Positions 20,884 through 44,473 of a stretch of 64,000 nucleotides of DNA are shown here, piece by piece (within the stretch, counting starts at the first letter, position 1; every line of letters begins with the position of its first letter). The notes under the pieces were generated by a model. The model made no database searches. It was not told where the DNA came from and was given only the letters and a program-made list of their open reading frames with translations. A program made the position numbers and the translations under genes. Origin of the DNA: Ignavibacteriales bacterium (GTDB lineage: Bacteria; Bacteroidota; Ignavibacteria; Ignavibacteriales; Melioribacteraceae); assembly GCA_016177735.1 (NCBI GenBank), contig JACOUS010000017.1, positions 1 to 64,000 of the forward strand. Reading direction: 5' to 3'.

Positions 20884-21366
20884 TCAGAAAAACGGAAGCC
20901 CGTCTTTCTTCAAACTGATTATTGCCGGGCTACCGATAAGATAAGCATCAATCATTGCTTTCTTTGTTTCATCGGAGTTGCGCGGAAAATAGCCGGTAAT
21001 ATTTTTAAATAAAGCAACAAGCCCTTCGGCATTGAGCGGGCGGTGTGTTGGTCCATGAGTCGGATAATCTGCAAAGCCGATCAGAATAACCGGCAAGTTT
21101 TGTTCATCGATATCAATTTTGATCTGTTCAAACGGGCGTTCGATTAAAAAAGGAGTTATCGAATACACAATCGGACGCAAACCTTCGAGAGCCATTCCGG
21201 CTGCCATACTAATCATCGTTTGCTCGCAAAGCCCGGTGTTATAATATCTGTCCGGAAATTTTTGGATAAACTCTTTCATTTCTTGTTCAACATCTCCGAA
21301 TAGGAGAGTGATTCTTTCATCTTTTTCTGCGAGATCAACAAGCGTTTTACCAAATTGTTTTCTCAT
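20884..21366 (-). CDS. Transketolase second subunit, pyrimidine-binding domain only
   Basis: A 160-residue protein matching the pyrimidine-binding domain of transketolase/DXS. NTGLCEQTMISMAAGMA carries the glutamate that activates thiamin diphosphate, and GPTHRPLNAEGL is the conserved substrate/cofactor histidine region. It ends at AYLIGSPAIISLKKD, so the roughly 120-150-residue C-terminal transketolase domain of normal second subunits (about 300 residues) is absent. It overlaps the first-subunit gene by four bases (ATGA), so the two products should be made together and assemble. Confidence 0.88.
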   Translation of the reverse strand: MRKQFGKTLVDLAEKDERITLLFGDVEQEMKEFIQKFPDRYYNTGLCEQTMISMAAGMALEGLRPIVYSITPFLIERPFEQIKIDIDEQNLPVILIGFADYPTHGPTHRPLNAEGLVALFKNITGYFPRNSDETKKAMIDAYLIGSPAIISLKKDGLPFF

Positions 21367-22118
21367 AACAACTCCTTCATTGCTTGTTCTTCTTGTTCTT
21401 TATCCGGCCATTTTGAATGCCACTCGGGTCTGCCTTCCATAAAACTTACGCCTCTTCCTTTTATGGTATGCGCAATTATCATTTTGGGTTTTTCAACAGA
21501 ATCTTCTTTCAGTACAGTCAGCAGCTCATGCTTTGAGTGCCCGTCAACTTCGAAAACATGCCAGCCGATTATCTCTGCAATTTTTCCGATGCCGTTAATC
21601 GGGAGAATATCTTTCACAAATCCCGAACCCTGAATTTTGTTGTAATCAATTATCACTGTTAGATTATCGAGTTTTCTGTGAGCGGCGGTAAGCATCGATT
21701 CCCACGTTGTTCCTTCCTGGCTTTCGCCGTCACCGATTAAAACGTAAATGTGTCCGTCAATTTTTTTTTGTTTGCGTGCGAGCGCCATTCCGATGCCGGT
21801 TGGAAATCCGTGTCCTTCGCTTCCGGTTGTGCAGTGAACTCCGTTTTTCTCATCGAGGTGCGGATGCCCTTCAAGTTTGGGATTGTTACCTCTTTCGCGT
21901 AGAAGAACATAGTAGGGCCAGCAAGCGTGACCTTTGCTCAAAATAAATTTGTCGTTGCCGGCTAAAATATTGTCGTAAAGACAAATCAATATTTCCGTTG
22001 CTGAGAAACTTCCTCCGTAATGATAACCGCCGTTTGCTTTGGAAAGCTTAAATGTTTCTCGTCTAATTTTTTTTGATCTTTCATCGAGTACAGTTACTGC
22101 AGATTTGATATCATGCAT
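21363..22118 (-). CDS. Transketolase first subunit (thiamin-diphosphate-binding)
   Basis: A 251-residue protein covering the pyrophosphate-binding half of transketolase. FILSKGHACWPYYVLL, TTGSEGHGFPTGIGMAL and the ThDP/Mg motif GDGESQEG followed by IIDYNKIQGSG are intact. I start at the ATG at 22,118 because GAGGAG lies seven bases upstream; a TTG five codons earlier falls on that ribosome binding site. Together with the downstream partner it would transfer a two-carbon ketol unit. Its placement in a sugar-nucleotide locus suggests dedicated sugar synthesis rather than the pentose phosphate pathway. Confidence 0.92.
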   Translation of the reverse strand: MHDIKSAVTVLDERSKKIRRETFKLSKANGGYHYGGSFSATEILICLYDNILAGNDKFILSKGHACWPYYVLLRERGNNPKLEGHPHLDEKNGVHCTTGSEGHGFPTGIGMALARKQKKIDGHIYVLIGDGESQEGTTWESMLTAAHRKLDNLTVIIDYNKIQGSGFVKDILPINGIGKIAEIIGWHVFEVDGHSKHELLTVLKEDSVEKPKMIIAHTIKGRGVSFMEGRPEWHSKWPDKEQEEQAMKELL

Positions 22119-22194
22119 AAAATTTCTCCTCAATGTTCAGAACATTTTAGAATTGATTTGGTTATGTCTATTTCTTTTCGCCGGAAGAATGAAA

Positions 22195-34528: not shown

Positions 34529-36067
34529 TTAGTTCAGATAACCGATAACTTGTTTGGTTAATGTTTCGGGTAAAGTTTCCGGGCAGAAAAAATTCTCTGA
34601 TTCAATTTTTGTTTTTACAAAATAATCACGGCTTAACGTTTCAATATCTTCGTACTTAACTTTATGAGCGTAACCGTCCTCTACCAAATCTTCGAGATGT
34701 TTATACTCGGTGTCGAGTATCCATATTATTTTGTTGTATGGAAGCATTTCGTAAACAAGTGTTGTCATCGCGCCGGCAACAATATCTATTTTTCTCATCA
34801 ACTCTTTATCAAGTTTTCCGGCAACGATTATTTTGCCGAGAGTCTCATCCGACAAACAATAAGCGGCTAATTGATCCTTCACTTCTTCGTCTGGACGCGG
34901 TTTGAAATAAACATTGTAACCGAATTCCAAAAATTTTTCTATGTATCTGCCGATTTTATATGTGTTCCCCACGAATTCGTACGGTATCAAAATATTTTTT
35001 TGATGCCCATTCGTATTTTCAGTCAGCGAATAATCATATTTAATTTTACTGCTGCCAATAACAATTTTTTCATCGGAATAAACTTTCGAGATGGCAAGCA
35101 AATGATTTTTCCAATATTTTCCCCACACAATAATTTTATCGAACCATTTGTAATCTTCTTTTTCAATTCCTTCCATTATATATCCCGCGTGACGTTTAAC
35201 GTAAGCTCCGTGCTGGTGTGCAATTGTTGGAATGCCGTTTTTGTTTAGCGCATACAACAATGGGAAAATATATTCGTTGCAATCGTCAAATCCGTACAAA
35301 ACTTTTATGGCAGATTTACGAATTAATTTGTCGTGTACCTTAAATTCATTTATTGAAGCCGATATTGTTTTTTCTATATAATCGATTGCTTTGATGAATA
35401 TAATTTTTGTATGCTGGTCACAATTGCTCAAATCGTATTGGAACTTGAAACGGTTTCTGAAGGCGATCCCTCTGTAATAATAGTACGGCTCTTTCTTCAG
35501 CATATATTTTAATATTTCTTTAGTTCTACCGGGTGGCACGACCTGAATATATTTGACTCCGAGTTTATCAAGCGCGTTACGAATTTCAACCGAACGAAAA
35601 TCATCAAACGAAAAACGGAAAAACATCATTTTATAGGGGAAGCGTTTTATGGTAAGTAAATTATTTATGCGAAGCAGAATATAGAATATCAAAAGCTTCA
35701 CTCTAAGTTTGAAAATATTTTCAGTCATAACACGGTAGATGCTATAAAACACATCTTTGTTCTGAAAATCAACTATTGTTTTTTTATCAATCAAATCATG
35801 CAAAAGAGTTTTATATCTCACGTACGGGAAGAAACAGCGCCAGTAAAGAAACGATACCATCGTTGGATACCAGTTGTACCCCATGTGTTTGTAATTATCT
35901 TTTAGAAGTTTTCCATTCTCACATCTCAATTCTTGAAATTCAAGTAACAGCTCTCTTGTCTTTTCGAGATCGGAATCGGGAATATATCTTTCTTCAGTGC
36001 CGTTGTTTTTAGAAAGATACAATATGCCGGTATTTCCTTCTTTAATTCTTATTCGATCAACTGCCAT
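34529..36067 (-). CDS. Putative GT-B-type surface polysaccharide transferase
   Basis: A 512-residue soluble protein that I only place by fold. The C-terminal half reads like the GT-B donor domain of capsule transferases of the KpsC/KpsS or CDP-glycerol-transferase kind: TIAHQHGAYVKRHAGYI, KIIVWGKYWKNHL, VYFKPRPDE and AGAMTTLVYEMLPYNKIIWIL. The N-terminal 170 residues are unlike anything I recognise and include a hydrophobic patch near 120-145. It overlaps the HAD phosphatase gene by 19 bases, so it belongs to the group that also encodes a KdsB-like CMP-transferase; a CMP-ulosonate donor is therefore a reasonable guess. Confidence 0.6.
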   Translation of the reverse strand: MAVDRIRIKEGNTGILYLSKNNGTEERYIPDSDLEKTRELLLEFQELRCENGKLLKDNYKHMGYNWYPTMVSFLYWRCFFPYVRYKTLLHDLIDKKTIVDFQNKDVFYSIYRVMTENIFKLRVKLLIFYILLRINNLLTIKRFPYKMMFFRFSFDDFRSVEIRNALDKLGVKYIQVVPPGRTKEILKYMLKKEPYYYYRGIAFRNRFKFQYDLSNCDQHTKIIFIKAIDYIEKTISASINEFKVHDKLIRKSAIKVLYGFDDCNEYIFPLLYALNKNGIPTIAHQHGAYVKRHAGYIMEGIEKEDYKWFDKIIVWGKYWKNHLLAISKVYSDEKIVIGSSKIKYDYSLTENTNGHQKNILIPYEFVGNTYKIGRYIEKFLEFGYNVYFKPRPDEEVKDQLAAYCLSDETLGKIIVAGKLDKELMRKIDIVAGAMTTLVYEMLPYNKIIWILDTEYKHLEDLVEDGYAHKVKYEDIETLSRDYFVKTKIESENFFCPETLPETLTKQVIGYLN

Positions 36068-36687
36068 GCTTTCTCTACTTCGTAAAAATTATTAAAAGAT
36101 TGAACCTCATCCGGAAATTGAATTGCATTGCTCTTAATTCCTATAAAATTAACGCCGGCATTTCTTGCCGCATTATAATCTGTGAGCGCATCACCGATAA
36201 AAACCAGATCACTCCTTTCATAATTATTCTCGTGCAATATCTCTTCAATTATTTCTTTCTTTGTTTTGGGCGAGCCGTAAACTTTTTTGAAATACTTCGC
36301 GAGTTTTTTCTCTTCGATTATTTTTATGATCTCTTCTTCGGGCGTTCCCGAAGCTACATAATTAGCAGTATGTAGTTTTTGTTTTTCCAAAAATTCAACA
36401 GCACCGGGAATAGCCGGTGCATTCACAACTTCGCGGTAAACCAATTCCGAAAATTTTTCCCCCAATTGTTTGAGCTGTTCTTCGCTCAGTTCTATTCCAA
36501 GGAATTCCTTATAGTAGTATCTAAATTTTTCGAAGCGGGAAATGCCGCCGTTTGCAAGATGATGAGCAACTACTTTTGCTTTAATTGCGTCTCCGTAATC
36601 TTCAAACATTTTTGCAAATGCATTTGTTTTTACATTTACCGAATCGAGTATCACTCCGTCGAAATCAAAAACTATTGCTCTCGTCAT
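36049..36687 (-). CDS. HAD-superfamily phosphatase (subfamily IA)
   Basis: A 212-residue HAD hydrolase with all four motifs: DFDGVILDS (nucleophile Asp), ASGT, the lysine in GSPKTKK, and GDALTDYNAA. A helical cap between motifs I and II makes it a PGP-like subfamily IA enzyme, not the tetrameric KdsC type. In this position (between a GT-B-like transferase and an epimerase, near a pyruvate aldolase and a KdsB-like gene) it probably removes a phosphate from a sugar or ulosonic-acid phosphate. Both flanking genes overlap it. Confidence 0.9.
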   Translation of the reverse strand: MTRAIVFDFDGVILDSVNVKTNAFAKMFEDYGDAIKAKVVAHHLANGGISRFEKFRYYYKEFLGIELSEEQLKQLGEKFSELVYREVVNAPAIPGAVEFLEKQKLHTANYVASGTPEEEIIKIIEEKKLAKYFKKVYGSPKTKKEIIEEILHENNYERSDLVFIGDALTDYNAARNAGVNFIGIKSNAIQFPDEVQSFNNFYEVEKAWQLIE

Positions 36688-37616
36688 TTAACTTCCGCTT
36701 CCCTAAAATTATTCTTCTCCAAATCAAATTTTGTTTTGATTCCATCTTTCGATAGTTGTTTGTACGTATCATAAATACAGTCCAAAATTCCTTGACCGAG
36801 ATCGTAGTGGTAATCGAGTATAAGTTTTTTTGCTACGCGCGGTTTGAACGAATACGGTGTTATTTCATAATGACCGAGCATCTTCTCATCATTAAACTCA
36901 ATCTCAATTGAATTGTTTAGCATCTCTTTTATCATTGCAAGTAGATCACCGACTCTCATTGTTTGTGTACCGGTAACCATCACGTAGGAATTGCGATACT
37001 CATTCTCAAGAATTTTAACGCTCGCCCGTGCCGCGTCGAGTACGTTAACGTAGTCGCGTATTTCAGTGCCGCCGCCGTTGCGTATTATTCTGCCTTCCGT
37101 GAGTGCTTGTTTGATTGCATTGTGGATATAATTAAATTCATTTGCCCTTCTGCCGTAGAGAGAACCAAAACGAAGTATTGTAAAATCCACTCCGTAAATT
37201 TCGCTGTAATTTTCAATGAGCAGTTCGACAGCTTGCTTACTGCTTCTATAAAACGAACCCTTATCGCTGTAAACATAAATGGAACTCGAATAGATAAATC
37301 TTTTTATTTTGTACTCACGGCATGCGTCCAAAATATAAGCTGCAGATAGTATGTTATTCTTCACTGTTTCAACCGGATTATTTTGCGCTTCGAGAATATC
37401 TGCGGTGCCGGCAAAATGATAAACTATGTCCGCGTTTTTGATACACTCGTTTACTTCAGCATGATTTTGAATATCGCCGATAATTAATTTTTGTTCTTTC
37501 TTCCGGTAAACAGAATCGCGTTTATCAAATATTGTAACATCATAATCCGCTGATGTGAGTGCATCTGCAACATGACTTCCCAAAAATCCCGATCCGCCGA
37601 ATACTAATGCTTTCAT
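36684..37616 (-). CDS. NAD-dependent epimerase/dehydratase (extended SDR) 4
   Basis: A 310-residue extended SDR: GGSGFLGSHVADAL, an aspartate in IFDKRD that would select NAD(H), catalytic YSSSIYVYS and the YRSSK pair. The region IRDYVNVLDAARASVKIL is typical of nucleotide-sugar epimerases. Its gene overlaps the HAD phosphatase by four bases. It probably epimerises the aldehyde precursor or the activated sugar of the surrounding module. Confidence 0.88.
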   Translation of the reverse strand: MKALVFGGSGFLGSHVADALTSADYDVTIFDKRDSVYRKKEQKLIIGDIQNHAEVNECIKNADIVYHFAGTADILEAQNNPVETVKNNILSAAYILDACREYKIKRFIYSSSIYVYSDKGSFYRSSKQAVELLIENYSEIYGVDFTILRFGSLYGRRANEFNYIHNAIKQALTEGRIIRNGGGTEIRDYVNVLDAARASVKILENEYRNSYVMVTGTQTMRVGDLLAMIKEMLNNSIEIEFNDEKMLGHYEITPYSFKPRVAKKLILDYHYDLGQGILDCIYDTYKQLSKDGIKTKFDLEKNNFREAEVK

Positions 37617-37680
37617 TATGTGTTTTATTTTAAAAGTTAATGAGCAGCGAAATAGATTTTGTTTTGTTGGTTATTGTTTT

Positions 37681-39453
37681 TTACGATACAACCGCATTGA
37701 GATATTCTTCTTCCGGCACTGTGCGTACCAATGGTTCGTTTTTAACAAACCTGATCGCTTCTTCGGTCGCAAGTATTTCCATTGCAGAGCGGCAATCGTT
37801 TGTCATTGAACCCATGTGACATGTTAAAAAGCAGTTATCGAGTTCGATAAGTTTTCCGGTGTACGGTTCGTTTTCAAAAACATCTACTGCAGCAGCGGCA
37901 ATTCTGTTTTTTGAAAGCGCATCGTAAAGATCATTTTCATTTATAATTCCGCCGCGAGAAGTGTTAATCAAAAAACTATTTTTCTTCATCAACTCAATTT
38001 CATTTTTCGCGATGAGATTATAAGTCAAATTCGTTAGCGGCACATGCAGCGTAATCAAATCCGCTTCTTTATAAATTGTTTCCTTATCAACATGAACGGC
38101 ATTGTACATTTCGTATAAGTTGAAATCCGGCTTGAGATCGTTCACCAAAATTCTTTTTGGATTAAATCCTTGCAAATGTTTTAATACTCTGCTTCCAACG
38201 CGTCCGGTGCCGATAATTCCAACAGTCATATTTGATAATCTTTCGCCGTGAATTCTCTGCCAGATACCCGAACGAAGTTTACGGTCAACAAGCGGAACGC
38301 GTCGCAAAATGTTTATCATCTGCCCGATAACTAGTTCGGCAACTGCCGGTGCCGGTGCATCGGGCGTGTAAGAAACTTTTATATCAAAATCTCTTGCCGC
38401 TTTCAGATCTACATTATCCAAACCGATTCCAACTCGTGAAATCAATTTTAATTTTTTTGCATGCTCAAGAACTTTGCGGGTTATCGGTTCGGTACCCGCA
38501 ATCATAATATCAAAATCCGTTACTAACTCTGCAAGTTCGTCTTCTTTTAATTTTCTTCCAATCGGATTAATTACGTAATCTAAATTCGGAGTGCTCTCCA
38601 GCAAGCGGAGCGGCAGAGGATTTATATTCCCGAACGGAATTGTTGTAATCAGTACTTTGCTCGCTGTACCGTTGTTTGAATTTCCCGATTTATTTCTACT
38701 CTGAAAAGTGAAACGTTTTGAGAGAGGATTTTCAAATTTATCGTAAGGTGTTTCCGAATCATTAAAACCGTTCTGTTTCAGCCAGCGTTCTATCATCGGT
38801 ATTTGCCAGATATAATCGATATCCCAAATTCCCTCTTGCTGTAGTACCGGATAAATATTATTACCGAGTACACTTTCGATGTAATTACTTTCCGTATTGC
38901 AATTAAGAATGTTATCCGTTCTAATTACTATAACGCGGTGATCGAGGAAATAAATATTCTCATGAAAGGATAAATATTGCTTATCTTGTTTTAACTGTGT
39001 CCCGTTTACAGTAAACATTCGTGCCGGACTGAATTCACTTCTTTTCATTGCAGAAACAACAGAATCAATTTTTTTATTCTCTGTTAGAAAAGAGAAAGCG
39101 TTAAACAACAGAGTGTTCGTAATGCAAGGAGAATTTGCAAACATGATTGCTATATTCTGCGGATAGTATCCCAATTCGTTTTTTACTTTTTCTAGTGCGG
39201 CTTTAATTTCTTCGGTTAAAGTCAGTCCGGGCAGATCGCGCGTTAATATTTTTAGTCCTTCTATTTCCCGGCATAAAGAAAGAAGCGACTGCGAATCTGT
39301 AGAAAGGTATGTTTGCTGTATTAAAGAAGTGTGCTTCGCTGCCAGGATCGGATACATCACTACCGGTCTGTTCAATATCGGGAAGGTGTATCTGTTAAAA
39401 TTTGTCTTCTCTTTCTTCCCAAAAATGATTGCTATATTTTTGATTTTTTTCAT
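37681..39453 (-). CDS. Fusion of NeuA-like nucleotidyltransferase and D-2-hydroxyacid dehydrogenase
   Basis: A 590-residue two-domain protein. Residues about 5-235 follow the CMP-sugar synthetase fold: NIAIIFGKKEK in place of the usual ARxGSK loop, LNRPVVMYPILAA, TYLSTDSQ and IMFANSPCITNTLL. The changed loop raises doubt about catalysis. A linker (240-265) leads to a phosphoglycerate-dehydrogenase-like domain (268-590) with GIIGTGRVG (412-420), catalytic Arg500 in NTSRGG, Glu529 in FENEP and His546 in CHMGS, all intact. Phosphoglycerate dehydrogenases have no such N-terminal domain. The GGAG site fixes the ATG. Confidence 0.82.
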   Translation of the reverse strand: MKKIKNIAIIFGKKEKTNFNRYTFPILNRPVVMYPILAAKHTSLIQQTYLSTDSQSLLSLCREIEGLKILTRDLPGLTLTEEIKAALEKVKNELGYYPQNIAIMFANSPCITNTLLFNAFSFLTENKKIDSVVSAMKRSEFSPARMFTVNGTQLKQDKQYLSFHENIYFLDHRVIVIRTDNILNCNTESNYIESVLGNNIYPVLQQEGIWDIDYIWQIPMIERWLKQNGFNDSETPYDKFENPLSKRFTFQSRNKSGNSNNGTASKVLITTIPFGNINPLPLRLLESTPNLDYVINPIGRKLKEDELAELVTDFDIMIAGTEPITRKVLEHAKKLKLISRVGIGLDNVDLKAARDFDIKVSYTPDAPAPAVAELVIGQMINILRRVPLVDRKLRSGIWQRIHGERLSNMTVGIIGTGRVGSRVLKHLQGFNPKRILVNDLKPDFNLYEMYNAVHVDKETIYKEADLITLHVPLTNLTYNLIAKNEIELMKKNSFLINTSRGGIINENDLYDALSKNRIAAAAVDVFENEPYTGKLIELDNCFLTCHMGSMTNDCRSAMEILATEEAIRFVKNEPLVRTVPEEEYLNAVVS

Positions 39454-39567
39454 GGAGTAACTCCACTTACTTTCAAAAACAGCAGCGGTGATTCACTGTT
39501 CAGTTACACAGAGGGGGAAAAAAAATCAAGAAAAGATGAATAATGAATGGAAACGATTTTGGGAAAA

Positions 39568-40362
39568 TCAGTTCTGTTTAAGAAACAAAATATTGGAAAT
39601 ATCGCCGTTACCGTTATTCCAAGTTTCCCGTTTAACTTCTTTAAAATTTGAGCCGGCAATAATTCTTTCTGTTGTACCTTTGCTGATATTGTGGCTCACT
39701 TCAATCATAATAGATTTCAACCGGTTGTCTGAAAGAACATTCCGACTCGCTTCAATAATTTTAGTTTCGTAGCCGTCAACATCAATCTTAATATGATTTG
39801 GGAAAACCGGTTCAAGCAATCTTGTTAGTTCCGGAAGCGTGTACGAAGAAATTCCCTGAATACGTTTTGGTTTGAAAAAAAGACCGTCGCTGAAAGGTTC
39901 ATTTACGGAATGAGTTGCCGAGCCGAATTCTTCGGACGACACATAAAAATTTGTGAGTCCGGTTTGTCCGCCCAGCGCGATTGGGAATGGGATCATATTT
40001 GTAAAACAATTCAAAGAAATATTTTTATTCAGTTTATAAAAATTTCCGGCTTCAGGCTCAAAAGAATAAATTGTAGAATTCTTATTCTTTGCAGCAATCA
40101 ATAAAGAATAGATACCAACATTTGCGCCGATATCGAACACAGTATCGCCGTCTCTGATAATATTTTCGATCCAGTACATCGTAACTTTCTCGGCATCGAA
40201 ATCACGTGCACGATTGTAAAGTTCTATCTTTGAATTTACGCTCACTTTAAATTTTGCGCCGTCGTAATTTATTTTGCGGATTAATCCCTTCGCGGTATAA
40301 ATGCCCAGCATTTCGGAATAATATTTCAATCTTCTGTATCCGCTCTTAAAAAGATTTTTCAT
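39568..40362 (-). CDS. FkbM family methyltransferase (second)
   Basis: A 264-residue SAM-dependent O-methyltransferase: VFDIGANVGIYSLLIA (motif I), IYSFEPEAGNFYKL, then IKIDVDGYETKIIEA, which is the FkbM signature. It shares four bases with the KdsB-like gene upstream. It likely O-methylates a sugar of the glycan, perhaps the ulosonic acid of the same group. It differs clearly from the FkbM protein encoded at 18,868-19,701. Confidence 0.9.
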   Translation of the reverse strand: MKNLFKSGYRRLKYYSEMLGIYTAKGLIRKINYDGAKFKVSVNSKIELYNRARDFDAEKVTMYWIENIIRDGDTVFDIGANVGIYSLLIAAKNKNSTIYSFEPEAGNFYKLNKNISLNCFTNMIPFPIALGGQTGLTNFYVSSEEFGSATHSVNEPFSDGLFFKPKRIQGISSYTLPELTRLLEPVFPNHIKIDVDGYETKIIEASRNVLSDNRLKSIMIEVSHNISKGTTERIIAGSNFKEVKRETWNNGNGDISNILFLKQN

Positions 40363-41126
40363 AAATATTTCCCAATCAACGGATCGTTTTTCATTAATCC
40401 GGCTGTATGAATTAAATCCTCTTTTGTATCAACGGAATATGTAAGCTGATCAACATAAACCATTTTTATACGCATTCCGTTTTCAAGAATTCTGTTCATA
40501 TCAATTGATTCAATTATTTCGAGAGTTGTTGACGGCATAGAATTGTATTGCAATAAAAAATCTCTTTCAAAAGGGATAACACATACTTGCTTGTAAAGCG
40601 GAACATCTTTTTGAACTTTTTTCCGCGAAGGAATCGGCTCACGTGAGAAATAAAGCGCAAAATTATTTTTATCAACAACTACTTTTATTTCATTCGGATC
40701 TTCGTGCTCTTCTCTGCTTGTGATTTTCGACATCAGGTTGCAGACTTTAATTCCGCCGTTGTTCATCAAGGGTTTTATTGATTCGGAAATCATCTGCGGT
40801 GTAATCATCGGTTCATCGCCTTGAATCATCACGACAATATCAACTTTTTTATTTGTCTCTTTCTCGATCTTCAACAAAGCTTCTGCAGTTCTATCGGAAG
40901 CTCTTTCATGTTTATCGGAAGTCATTATCACTTTTCCGCCGATTGATTCCATATAATTTTTAATTTCTTCATCGCAAGTTGCGGTATAAACTTCCGATAA
41001 ATCTTTGCACATTTTACTGCGGTAGTAAACGTGTGCAATCATCGGCAAGCCTAAAATTTTTTCGAGCGGTTTGTTTGGAAATCTTGTGGAAGCAAGCCGC
41101 GCCGGAATAATGCCGATTATATTCAC
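40359..41126 (-). CDS. KdsB-like CMP-ulosonate cytidylyltransferase
   Basis: A 255-residue nucleotidyltransferase closely patterned on 3-deoxy-manno-octulosonate cytidylyltransferase: IIPARLASTRFPNKPLE (the CTP loop), TSDKHERASDRTAEAL (KdsB has a similar TS-x-H-x-SGTDR) and MIQGDEPMI with the metal-binding aspartate. It transfers CMP from CTP to a 2-keto-3-deoxy acid. It is not sure to be the housekeeping kdsB: its GTG start overlaps a HpcH/HpaI aldolase gene (GTGA), and no kdsA, kdsC or kdsD is nearby, so the substrate may be a related ulosonic acid. Confidence 0.85.
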   Translation of the reverse strand: MNIIGIIPARLASTRFPNKPLEKILGLPMIAHVYYRSKMCKDLSEVYTATCDEEIKNYMESIGGKVIMTSDKHERASDRTAEALLKIEKETNKKVDIVVMIQGDEPMITPQMISESIKPLMNNGGIKVCNLMSKITSREEHEDPNEIKVVVDKNNFALYFSREPIPSRKKVQKDVPLYKQVCVIPFERDFLLQYNSMPSTTLEIIESIDMNRILENGMRIKMVYVDQLTYSVDTKEDLIHTAGLMKNDPLIGKYL

Positions 41127-41869
41127 GAAAGTTTTTCCTTTATCTTTTTGACTTGTTCATTACAGAGTGTACCGAGAAATAACGTATCGAGACTGAACGC
41201 GATAAAATTATATCCGGAATTTAATTTCTCAATCACCAAATTGTAATCCGGTTTTATCACATGAAAACCGATCAGCTTGTTATAATTTTTTGTTTTGCTT
41301 TCATAAACGGTCAGCGCTTCTTTAACTTCCGCATCATCGAAACGACCCGGTTTTCCCATCGAAGCAGATAAATCGTACGGACCAATGATTGTTCCATCAA
41401 CTCCTTCAACAGATAAAATTTCATCGAGATTTTTTATCGCATCGATATGTTCAATCTGAACAATAATTTTTATTTTGTCAATAATTTTATCGCGGTACTC
41501 TTCAAATCCGAATCCGTATTTTTGTGCGCGAGCGAGTCCAACACCTCTTTTCCCTTTCGGTGGATATTTTACGGCATCAACTGCTCTTTGTGCTTCCCCG
41601 GCAGAGTTAACCATCGGCACTATTATTCCTTCTGCGCCGGCATCGAGCACACGTTTAATAATTCTTGAATTGTTTTCTCCAACGCGTACATACGGAGTAA
41701 TTTTATTTGCTTTGATAGATGCGATCAAAACTTCCGCATCGTAATAATCAATTACCGAATGCTCCATATCAATACAGAGCCAGTCGAAACCGGCATGCGC
41801 CATAATTTCAACTATAGAAAAATGATTTAATGTTATCCAGCTGCCGAGAGAAATTTTTCTTGAATTCAT
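41123..41869 (-). CDS. HpcH/HpaI family pyruvate aldolase
   Basis: A 248-residue class II pyruvate aldolase. GFDWLCIDMEHSVID, TPYVRVGENN (the pyruvate-binding arginine), GAEGIIVPMVNSAGEA, KYPPKGKRGVG and VQIEHIDAIKNLDEI with the metal-binding glutamate match the 4-hydroxy-2-oxoheptanedioate / 2-dehydro-3-deoxyglucarate aldolase group. In catabolism these enzymes cleave; here, coupled to a KdsB-like cytidylyltransferase by a GTGA overlap and to the flippase by ATGA, it more likely condenses pyruvate with an aldehyde to make a 3-deoxy-2-ulosonic acid. Confidence 0.9.
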   Translation of the reverse strand: MNSRKISLGSWITLNHFSIVEIMAHAGFDWLCIDMEHSVIDYYDAEVLIASIKANKITPYVRVGENNSRIIKRVLDAGAEGIIVPMVNSAGEAQRAVDAVKYPPKGKRGVGLARAQKYGFGFEEYRDKIIDKIKIIVQIEHIDAIKNLDEILSVEGVDGTIIGPYDLSASMGKPGRFDDAEVKEALTVYESKTKNYNKLIGFHVIKPDYNLVIEKLNSGYNFIAFSLDTLFLGTLCNEQVKKIKEKLS

Positions 41870-43218
41870 TTAACAGCCTCGATAAGTTTTTCCTTTCTGC
41901 CGGCAAACGAAAACCACGGCATCGGGTATGCTTTATTATTTATGTGCCATGCAGAAATTGCTGTAATCAAATATGCAACAAAAGTGGCTTGTGCGGCTCC
42001 AATAGGACCGACAGTCTTTATCAGAAAATATGTGAGCGGTAACTTTATTAATGCCGCGAGAAAATCTGTCCTAAAAGCAACCATCTTTGTTTTCTTTGTG
42101 TAGATAACATATATCCCAAACATTTGATAAGCCGCAAGCATCGCATAACCAAGTGCAATCCACAAAACGTAAACGTAAGCATCTTGAAATTTTTCACCGA
42201 CAAAAAACGGAAAAATAGTCTTTGCCACAAAATAAAGCCCGACTGAGCAGATTATAAAAAATGTAATGTACATGTAAGTTATCTTCACCAATTTGCTTTT
42301 CACTTCATCCGAATCTTTTGTCTTGCTCAAATTTTCAAAAGCGTACGGCATAAAAACTTTGTGAAAAGCACCGTGCAAAATCATTAACAATCCGCCGAAT
42401 GTAAATCCGACACTGTACAAGCCGGCGGCTGAAACACTTACCATCGAAGAAAGGAAGAAGCGGTCGGAGAGAACCAATACAAATCCGCCGATTGAATGTG
42501 GAATCAACGGAATACCGAAATTCAAAAAATCTTTTATATTTTTTTTGTCAACCAATTTCAAAGAAAAATTAATTAGTCTATTCTTGACCAATAAAATTAT
42601 TCCAATAGCAGCAACAATAAAAGAACTGATAAGAAGCGCCATTATCCTTCCTTCCCAGTTCCAAAGAAATAGCGCAACTAGAATTACAGATAAACCCAAG
42701 TTCATGATCGTCTGCAATATTTGAAACATCGAATATTCTTTCGCCCTTTTCTTTGCCTGGTAAAAACTCAATGTTATATCAATAATAACCTGGCAGATTG
42801 AAATGAATGGAATAATCAAAAGCCAGCCAATCGGTATTTCAAGTTCCTTCTTTATGATGCCGCTGAAAATCAAAAGCAAAAAGAACGTAACTAATGTCAT
42901 TGCGATGTTAACAAAGAATGTATTTGAGATTGATTTTTTGTTTTCGTCATTATTCAAAAAGAAATGATTCCTAAAAACATAACCGATACAGCTTAACGAA
43001 ACAAAGTAACTTGCAATTGTGAATATGGCTGTATAATTGGAAACTATACCGTAATCGTGCGGAGTTAAATAGCGTGTTAAAATCGGTACCAAAAAGAAAG
43101 CCACACCGGTTCCCGCAATTGACGAGAACAAGTAGATGAAAGACGATCTAACTTCTTTATTCCCCATAAACTGTTCTAAAAGTTTCAAGCCGGTTTCTTT
43201 TTTAATTATGAAATTCAT
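41866..43218 (-). CDS. Wzx-like polysaccharide flippase
   Basis: A 450-residue membrane protein of the MOP/PST superfamily with about twelve to fourteen helices. The N-terminal helix region SFIYLFSSIAGTGVAFFLVPILTRYL and LTPHDYGIVSNY fit the Polysacc_synt family. It would flip the undecaprenyl-pyrophosphate-linked repeat unit to the periplasm for the Wzy-like polymerase encoded at 10,500-11,855. It shares four bases with the aldolase gene downstream. Confidence 0.9.
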   Translation of the reverse strand: MNFIIKKETGLKLLEQFMGNKEVRSSFIYLFSSIAGTGVAFFLVPILTRYLTPHDYGIVSNYTAIFTIASYFVSLSCIGYVFRNHFFLNNDENKKSISNTFFVNIAMTLVTFFLLLIFSGIIKKELEIPIGWLLIIPFISICQVIIDITLSFYQAKKRAKEYSMFQILQTIMNLGLSVILVALFLWNWEGRIMALLISSFIVAAIGIILLVKNRLINFSLKLVDKKNIKDFLNFGIPLIPHSIGGFVLVLSDRFFLSSMVSVSAAGLYSVGFTFGGLLMILHGAFHKVFMPYAFENLSKTKDSDEVKSKLVKITYMYITFFIICSVGLYFVAKTIFPFFVGEKFQDAYVYVLWIALGYAMLAAYQMFGIYVIYTKKTKMVAFRTDFLAALIKLPLTYFLIKTVGPIGAAQATFVAYLITAISAWHINNKAYPMPWFSFAGRKEKLIEAVK

Positions 43219-43234
43219 TTATCGTTGCTATTAT

Positions 43235-44473
43235 TTATGAATTTGGAGATTCTACTTTGGCTCCGTTATGCGGAATTAAATTTTTCCCAAACTGCATTTG
43301 TAAATCTGCTCCAACCATTATTCGCACTAGTTCATTGAATTTAACTTTCGGCTGCCAACCAAGTTCCTTACTCGCTTTTGAATAATCTCCGATCAGGTAA
43401 TCAACTTCTGCCGGACGAAAATATTCGGCACCGACATTTATTATTTCTGTTCCTTCGTTTAAATCCGAAATCCTTTGCAGCAAAAATTCCTTATTTATGA
43501 AAGCACCGTTATTATCCGAACCGGACTTAAATGCTTTGTGATCATTTTTGTTATGATTAGAGTTATTTAATGAATCACCCAATTCTACTATTTTGTTTTT
43601 ATCAATTGATTTGATAACGCCTCTTTCATTTTCATTTTTGCCATGCCATTCAATTCCAATTCCCAGACAATCGAATGCTTCTTCACAAAATTCTCGTACA
43701 GTATGAGTCTCGCCGGTTGCCAAAATAAAATCTTCAGGCTGCTCGTGTTGTAGAATCTGCCACATCCCTTCGCAATATTCGGGTGCATAGCCCCAATCGC
43801 GGTTAGCATTTAAGTTGCCAAGAATTAATTTTTCTTTCATGCCCAATACAATTTCAGCGGCGGTCTTTGTAATTTTTCTCGTAACAAAATTTTCTCCGCG
43901 TCTCGGCGATTCATGATTGAAAAGAATTCCGTTGCATGCAAAAATGTTGTAAGCCTCTCTGTAATTAACAACCGACCAATAAGCAAAAAGTTTTGAAACA
44001 GCATACGGAGAACGGGGATAAAACGGAGTCTTTTCGGATTGCGGACTTTCAACCGCTTTGCCGTACAATTCGCTTGTTGATGCTTGGTAAAATTTAGTCT
44101 GTTTGCCAAGTCCTGTCTCTCTAATTGCATCTAAAAATCTCAAAGTTCCCAAAGCATCTACTTGCGCTGTATAGTCGGGAATTTCAAAAGAAATTTTAAC
44201 ATGGCTTTGTGCGGCAAGATTATAAATTTCATCGGGCTCTGTCTTTTCTAAAATTCTGTGGAGACTGCTTGTATCTACAACATCGCCGTAGTACATAAAA
44301 AATTTTGAATCGCGGTACTGCGGATTGTTATAGTACAGGTGATCTATCCGAGTTGTATTTATTGTGCTGCTTCTTCTGATAATGCCGTGAACTTCGTAAC
44401 CTTTTGCAAGCAGAAGTTCTGTTAGATAACTCCCATCTTGACCGGTGATGCCGGTTATTAATGCTTTTTTCAT
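43235..44473 (-). CDS. gmd: GDP-mannose 4,6-dehydratase with an insertion
   Basis: A 412-residue extended SDR that converts GDP-mannose to GDP-4-keto-6-deoxymannose. The family motifs are near-perfect: [65 protein letters not shown] and EYFRPAEVD. The normal length is about 340-375 residues; the extra comes from a low-complexity insertion at roughly residues 288-344, rich in N, K, S and D, just before the C-terminal substrate motif. Its product feeds GDP-perosamine, GDP-fucose or GDP-rhamnose pathways; the RfbE-like DegT at 7,314-8,471 suggests perosamine. Confidence 0.95.

Follow-up and report, generated by a model that had tools for sequence, protein, structure and literature searches.

A conserved gene cluster pairing an HpcH/HpaI aldolase with a KdsB-like cytidylyltransferase, a candidate pathway to a CMP-activated ulosonic acid

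Introduction

To our knowledge, the ulosonic acids activated with cytidine monophosphate (CMP) whose biosynthesis has been worked out, namely 3-deoxy-D-manno-octulosonic acid (Kdo) and the sialic, pseudaminic and legionaminic acids, are all built by synthases that depend on phosphoenolpyruvate (PEP). Here we analyzed a stretch of 64,000 nucleotides (the window) from an Ignavibacteriales bacterium of the family Melioribacteraceae (GCA_016177735.1, contig JACOUS010000017.1), in which a minus-strand cluster at 34529-41869 encodes an HpcH/HpaI class II aldolase (ALD) and a KdsB-like CMP-ulosonate synthetase paralogue (KdsBx). The window is contig C20 of a genome of 3.87 Mb in 44 contigs.

The cluster resembles the CMP-Kdo pathway (KdsD-KdsA-KdsC-KdsB) in the KdsB-like activation of an ulosonic acid with cytidine triphosphate (CTP) and in the presence of a haloacid dehalogenase (HAD) phosphatase. 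The CMP-Kdo pathway, however, uses a PEP-dependent synthase, whereas the cluster has a class II aldolase with no KdsA nearby; KdsBx forms a separate clade with changed motifs, and the HAD protein of the cluster falls below the cut-off of the KdsC model. The NeuB/NeuA, PseI/PseF and LegI/LegF pathways also yield CMP-activated ulosonic acids of surface glycans through CTP_transf_3 enzymes, but a NeuB-type synthase was near only 8 of 79 clusters, and an aldolase and a dehydrogenase of the phosphoglycerate dehydrogenase (PGDH) type are foreign to those pathways. In the phosphonate pathways of PntC and Fom1 an unusual acid is likewise activated with CTP, with PntC acting in surface tailoring, but the cluster lacks a PEP mutase and its nucleotidyltransferase belongs to a different Pfam family (PMC6697681). 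A phosphonate pathway was rejected, as the aldolase is a PF03328 protein with the catalytic residues of HpaI and PEP mutase was not seen in the cluster. ALD shares with HpaI, YfaU/RhmA and GarL the fold family and the E, H, R, E and D residues of the metal/pyruvate site. Those enzymes are catabolic, as are the HpcH/HpaI enzymes characterized to date (PMC7610986), whereas the ALD clade has Tyr and His at the positions of HpaI Ala174 and Leu212 and is located in glycan loci.

We propose, with a probability of about 70%, that the cluster is a dedicated pathway in which ALD forms a 2-ulosonic acid and KdsBx activates it with CMP. We favor the view that what differs from the known CMP-ulosonate pathways is the chemistry of C-C bond formation. 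No account of an HpcH/HpaI-KdsB pathway was found in literature text searches, whose coverage left out most subscription journals.

Conservation of the aldolase-cytidylyltransferase linkage

Proteins of the cluster were assigned to families by Pfam and NCBIfam profile searches. ALD (41123..41869, minus strand, 248 aa) matched PF03328 (E 1.4e-36). KdsBx (40359..41126, minus strand, 255 aa) matched PF02348 (E 1.4e-48) and PRK13368 above cut-off; its gene starts with GTG and overlaps that of ALD by 4 bp. An earlier note on this DNA, made from the sequence alone, had described this overlap as GTGA, and its HpcH/HpaI, KdsB-like, FkbM, extended short-chain dehydrogenase/reductase (SDR) and HAD family calls were all matched by the profiles. 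It had also stated that the PEP synthases KdsA and NeuB are not here, and neither homologue is encoded within the window.

The main sample was picked by similarity to the ALD of the window: a search with ALD alone gave 80 loci, 79 of which were analyzable. The loci came from Bacteroidota, Pseudomonadota (Nitrosomonadaceae), Omnitrophota, Bacillota, Chloroflexota, Thermodesulfobacteriota, Nitrospirota, Campylobacterota and archaeal metagenome-assembled genomes (MAGs), the last as single MAG contigs in which binning errors are possible. A CTP_transf_3-type gene, mostly KdsBx and otherwise NeuA-type, was present within 10 genes of ALD in 78 of the 79 loci, mostly adjacent to it; many of the Nitrosomonas loci are closely related. 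ALD was accompanied by the dehydrogenase in 66 loci, by SDR in 55, by HAD in 48 and by NeuB in 8, while KdsA was found near ALD in none of the 79. The co-occurrence of the aldolase with a KdsB-like gene and no kdsA nearby, for which the earlier note had proposed a search, is a recurrent arrangement.

As a control, HpcH/HpaI genes of the phylum were drawn by family profile and viewed in large windows. A CTP-transferase was nearby in five of six cases for aldolases of the GPYDL type, and in 0/9 for the GPADL, GPRDL, GPHDL and GPTDL types (one of the nine with a short window). A class search with KdsBx yielded 15 KdsB-type genes outside the module; none had ALD within 1.5 kb, and nearly all were flanked by apparent pyrG and gatC-like genes. 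The linkage of ALD and CTP-transferase is far above chance.

Relatives of the whole cluster were found as well. A phylum search with the NeuA-like/dehydrogenase fusion protein of the cluster returned dehydrogenase orthologues of 54-62% identity, several of them adjoining the same SDR, FkbM and HAD genes. Two genomes of another family carried KdsBx (53%), ALD (38-41%), FkbM, SDR and the dehydrogenase in one operon, with HAD in one of the two. The class search with KdsBx also turned up L074 and L075, loci in genomes of the same class whose KdsBx is closely related (71% and 63%). In both it lies beside ALD (70% and 69%), SDR (62%), HAD and the dehydrogenase, and one of them has the same fusion. 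By its annotations, an Acuticoccus plasmid repeats the order aldolase, acylneuraminate cytidylyltransferase, phosphoglycerate dehydrogenase, HAD and NAD(P)-dependent oxidoreductase. With relatives recovered in the fusion, KdsBx and ALD searches, the gene order is not unique to the genome of the window, and the recurring linkage led us to reject a chance or genome-unique arrangement.

KdsBx is distinct from housekeeping KdsB

In an alignment, KdsBx kept K19, D104 and D233, which correspond to the KdsB lysine and the two Mg-binding aspartates (KdsB residues for comparison, including Mg-binding D95 and D219 of A. aeolicus, are from PMC3149649). Its best solved relative by sequence is the CMP-Kdo synthetase 1gq9. 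Two motifs differ: KdsBx has HERASDR and KQVC, whereas housekeeping KdsB has SGTDR and KH(I/L)G. The KdsBx motifs are shared by the window protein and most of the ALD-linked members, with close variants in the remainder. In the phylogenetic tree, branches supported at 100/96 and 100/95 set the ALD-linked KdsBx sequences apart from housekeeping KdsB, except for one contig-edge gene, one small second-copy type and one very long odd branch. A second KdsB-like copy with the motif DVRRASDR (L079 17816, L082 12727) formed its own long branch within the KdsBx side of the tree.

On contig C26 of the same genome, KdsA lies beside a small KdsC-type HAD gene, and there is a separate KdsB, to which KdsBx is only 40% identical. 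With the kdsA and kdsB of the genome located elsewhere, KdsBx is a paralogue. The idea that KdsBx is the sole housekeeping kdsB was rejected, since kdsA, kdsC and kdsB sit at another locus; the second KdsB on C26 and the separate clade in the tree thus agree with the earlier note. At two further loci of the genome, C24 and C16, a gene of the CTP-transferase family is paired with an apparent NeuB, as judged from sequence only.

Presence of the module without KdsA

Thirty carrier genomes were scanned for KdsA. It was detected above cut-off in 12 of them and was not found above cut-off in the carriers belonging to Nitrosomonas, Nitrosospira, Balneola, Syntrophomonas, Dehalococcoidia and the archaeal MAGs. 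In the four Nitrosomonadaceae genomes tested, KdsBx was the only match to the kdsB model, and WaaA and LpxC were not found in seven Nitrosomonadaceae genomes. This is consistent with published work on N. europaea, in which genes for Kdo2-lipid A are nearly absent (PMC3087551). Since Nitrosomonadaceae without KdsA keep the module, it works without KdsA-made Kdo, and its retention where kdsA, waaA and lpxC are missing favors a dedicated pathway from aldolase to CMP-ulosonate. We also considered whether, in Nitrosomonas, the module stands in for Kdo on lipid A, but this was dropped as LpxC and WaaA are missing from those genomes.

The Nitrosomonas and Nitrosospira loci (L154, L132, L148 and others) have an operon KdsBx-ALD-PGDH-SDR-HAD, usually followed by a 6-phosphogluconolactonase-family gene. 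The operon is divergent from a gene for a GT-B-fold protein, and FkbM and an O-antigen-ligase-like gene are nearby in several loci. These loci suggest that ammonia oxidizers have an acidic surface glycan independent of lipid A.

Active site of the aldolase

Residues E36, H37, R62, E140 and D166 of ALD occupy the positions of HpaI E44, H45, R70, E149 and D175, and these catalytic and metal-site residues were kept in 79-80 of 80 sequences. Specific to the clade are Y165 (HpaI Ala174) and H203 (HpaI Leu212). Hydroxypyruvate is accepted by wild-type aldolases of the HpcH/HpaI family, in one case aided by an aromatic residue in the active site (PMC7610986), and H203 may play the role of that residue in ALD.

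Most sampled genomes of the family of the window have another conserved PF03328 protein (L230-L257), whose reading frame has about 400 codons in most cases. It represents a distinct HpcH/HpaI subtype, and its 1.5 kb flanks contain no CTP-transferase.

Fusion dehydrogenase and accessory genes

The gene at 37681..39453 (minus strand, 590 aa) encodes a fusion of a NeuA-like region (residues ~1-262) with a D-2-hydroxyacid dehydrogenase (~263-590; PF02826, E 2.8e-49). The dehydrogenase matches PF02826/PF00389 and keeps the Arg/Glu/His catalytic set of the PGDH/hydroxypyruvate reductase family. The N-terminal half has only a weak match to CTP_transf_3 (E 4e-5), and the Arg/Lys motif of the CTP site near its N-terminus is lost, reading GKKEKTNFNRYT in the window and GKDEENSFNRYT in L074, whereas it is intact in the free-standing L042 relative. 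The NeuA-like half thus looks catalytically dead from its sequence, and KdsBx is therefore the likely activating enzyme. The fusion described in the earlier note does exist, and with an intact dehydrogenase, but its NeuA half has no CTP-site motif. The same fusion in L074 is 62% identical; elsewhere the dehydrogenase is free-standing.

Two accessory sets were observed, and they are mutually exclusive among the loci. One consists of SDR and HAD, often with a 6-phosphogluconolactonase-family gene; a true gene of that family was present in 22 loci, 20 of which are of the SDR+HAD type. The other consists of Gfo/Idh, an SIS isomerase, a classical SDR and an AroB-like enzyme (TIGR04425, named 'putative sugar phosphate phospholyase' in NCBIfam), and it was seen with the aldolase/CTP-transferase/PGDH core in L047 (6267-9716), L048, L104, L106, L112, L124, L137 and L152. 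Twenty loci had a Cyclase-family hydrolase, and three had a YhcH-type protein. As the partner sets vary around the same genes, the constant core is aldolase, cytidylyltransferase and 2-hydroxyacid dehydrogenase.

The window has the first set. Its extended SDR, of the sugar epimerase/dehydrogenase type (36684..37616, minus strand, 310 aa; PF01370, E 2.7e-42), contains GGSGFLG and YxxxK, and its HAD phosphatase (36049..36687, minus strand, 212 aa; PF13419, E 1.3e-20) has a DxD motif. The FkbM-family methyltransferase (39568..40362, minus strand, 264 aa; TIGR01444 above cut-off) is exchangeable, with another methyltransferase or a hexapeptide acyltransferase in its place in relatives.

Proposed pathway and alternatives

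We infer the reactions, their order and the product as follows. ALD would join a 2-oxo acid, either pyruvate or hydroxypyruvate supplied via the D-2-hydroxyacid dehydrogenase, to a sugar-derived aldehyde, and the product would be a 2-ulosonic acid other than the Kdo made by KdsA. KdsBx would convert this acid to its CMP derivative, which would go into a surface polysaccharide. Preparation of the aldehyde or the donor is most likely the task of the SDR and HAD, and in relatives also of a 6-phosphogluconolactonase, or of the Gfo/Idh, SIS and AroB-like enzymes; FkbM and the alternative methyl- and acyltransferases may tailor the product. Pyruvate is the simplest donor and would give a 3-deoxy product; hydroxypyruvate, giving a 3-hydroxy product, would explain the dehydrogenase better. 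The earlier note had proposed an aldolase and KdsB-like route without KdsA or NeuB; the conserved module and the distinct KdsB-like clade support the route, but not the 3-deoxy product, as hydroxypyruvate is also a possible donor. A further-reaching and tentative version is that this is a third, PEP-independent CMP-ulosonate route in bacteria and perhaps archaea, in which the PGDH-type enzyme delivers hydroxypyruvate, the product keeps its 3-hydroxyl, and organisms that have lost Kdo and lipid A synthesis, such as Nitrosomonas, obtain their acidic surface sugar by this route.

Several points weigh against the proposed pathway. Linkage alone is no proof that the product of ALD is the substrate of the cytidylyltransferase, and the locus counts are not independent because the loci were sampled by ALD similarity and include near-relative Nitrosomonas loci. 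The dehydrogenase is hard to fit into a simple scheme of pyruvate, aldehyde and CTP, and HpcH/HpaI aldolases are otherwise catabolic (PMC7610986). That catabolic record, along with the tendency of unrelated genes to gather in surface-sugar islands, could mean that a catabolic aldolase and a KdsBx activating a sugar from elsewhere merely share an island. We consider this very improbable, given the 78/79 linkage across phyla, mostly between adjacent genes, and its lack in the control aldolase subtypes.

The main rival is that the 2-ulosonic acid arises from oxidation: SDR and a lactonase would convert a sugar phosphate to an aldonate phosphate, the dehydrogenase would oxidize C2, HAD would remove the phosphate and KdsBx would add CMP, with the aldolase adjusting or salvaging the product by retro-aldol cleavage or epimerization. 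The intact R/E/H catalytic residues of the dehydrogenase fit this scheme, as do the lactonase-family and Cyclase-family genes counted above. The window cluster, however, has no lactonase, and aldolase and cytidylyltransferase are the tightest pair despite quite different upstream enzymes, which makes an accessory role of the aldolase unlikely; oxidation is thus an unlikely origin. Alternatively, the module might use a different aldol route to reach Kdo itself or an isomer very close to it, and KdsBx would then be a CMP-Kdo synthetase. This would agree with KdsBx belonging to the fold family of KdsB and keeping its lysine and metal ligands, and with 1gq9 as the nearest solved relative by sequence. 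This reading is less probable still, because the genome already has kdsA, kdsC and kdsB, two KdsB-clade motifs are altered in the KdsBx clade, and the Kdo2-lipid A machinery is missing in the Nitrosomonas carriers.

If the aldolase pathway is true, a route so widespread would have arisen as an invention of its own. Orphan 'kdsB' genes would then be accounted for in organisms that lack Kdo, Nitrosomonas among them, and many kdsB and PGDH annotations in such clusters would be misnamed. The cluster offers a clear gene set for expression and assay.

Other genes of the window

The order of transcription is flippase, ALD, KdsBx, FkbM, fusion, SDR, HAD and a 512-aa protein. Overlaps of 4 bp are present at KdsBx/ALD, ALD/flippase, FkbM/KdsBx and HAD/SDR, and the fusion gene is flanked by gaps of 64 and 114 bp. 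The eight minus-strand genes in a row reported earlier are all present, but only seven lie inside 34529-41869; the eighth is the Wzx-type flippase just outside (41866..43218, minus strand; PF01943, E 7e-21), whose 3' end overlaps the start of ALD.

The 512-aa protein (34529..36067, minus strand), possibly a GT-B glycosyltransferase, had no Pfam match above cut-off, no NCBIfam match, no match to the Capsule_synth profile and no homologue among 395 genomes, and its earlier assignment as a KpsC/S-like GT-B transferase is unsupported by these searches. Its single-sequence AlphaFold2 model had a mean confidence (pLDDT) of 34.5. It gave a collinear but weak hhalign match (E 0.08) to the GT-B-fold protein beside the Nitrosomonas operon, the model of which had a pLDDT of 82.9. 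As this latter model matched UDP-GlcNAc 2-epimerases and many GT-B enzymes alike (Z ~19-24), the donor of the Nitrosomonas protein is not readable from the fold. A transferase of the LIC12162 family (TIGR04331) recurs near the clusters (L074 4882-6693, with similar genes in L042-L045) and is a candidate for the enzyme that uses the CMP-sugar.

Elsewhere in the window, 43235-44473 encodes a predicted GDP-mannose 4,6-dehydratase with an insertion of about 50 residues at residues ~290-345 relative to the Gmd model. At 20884-22133, inside the polysaccharide island, a transketolase is split over two genes. An alcohol dehydrogenase gene and an HldE-like gene adjoin it, and branched-sugar or heptose chemistry is possible there.

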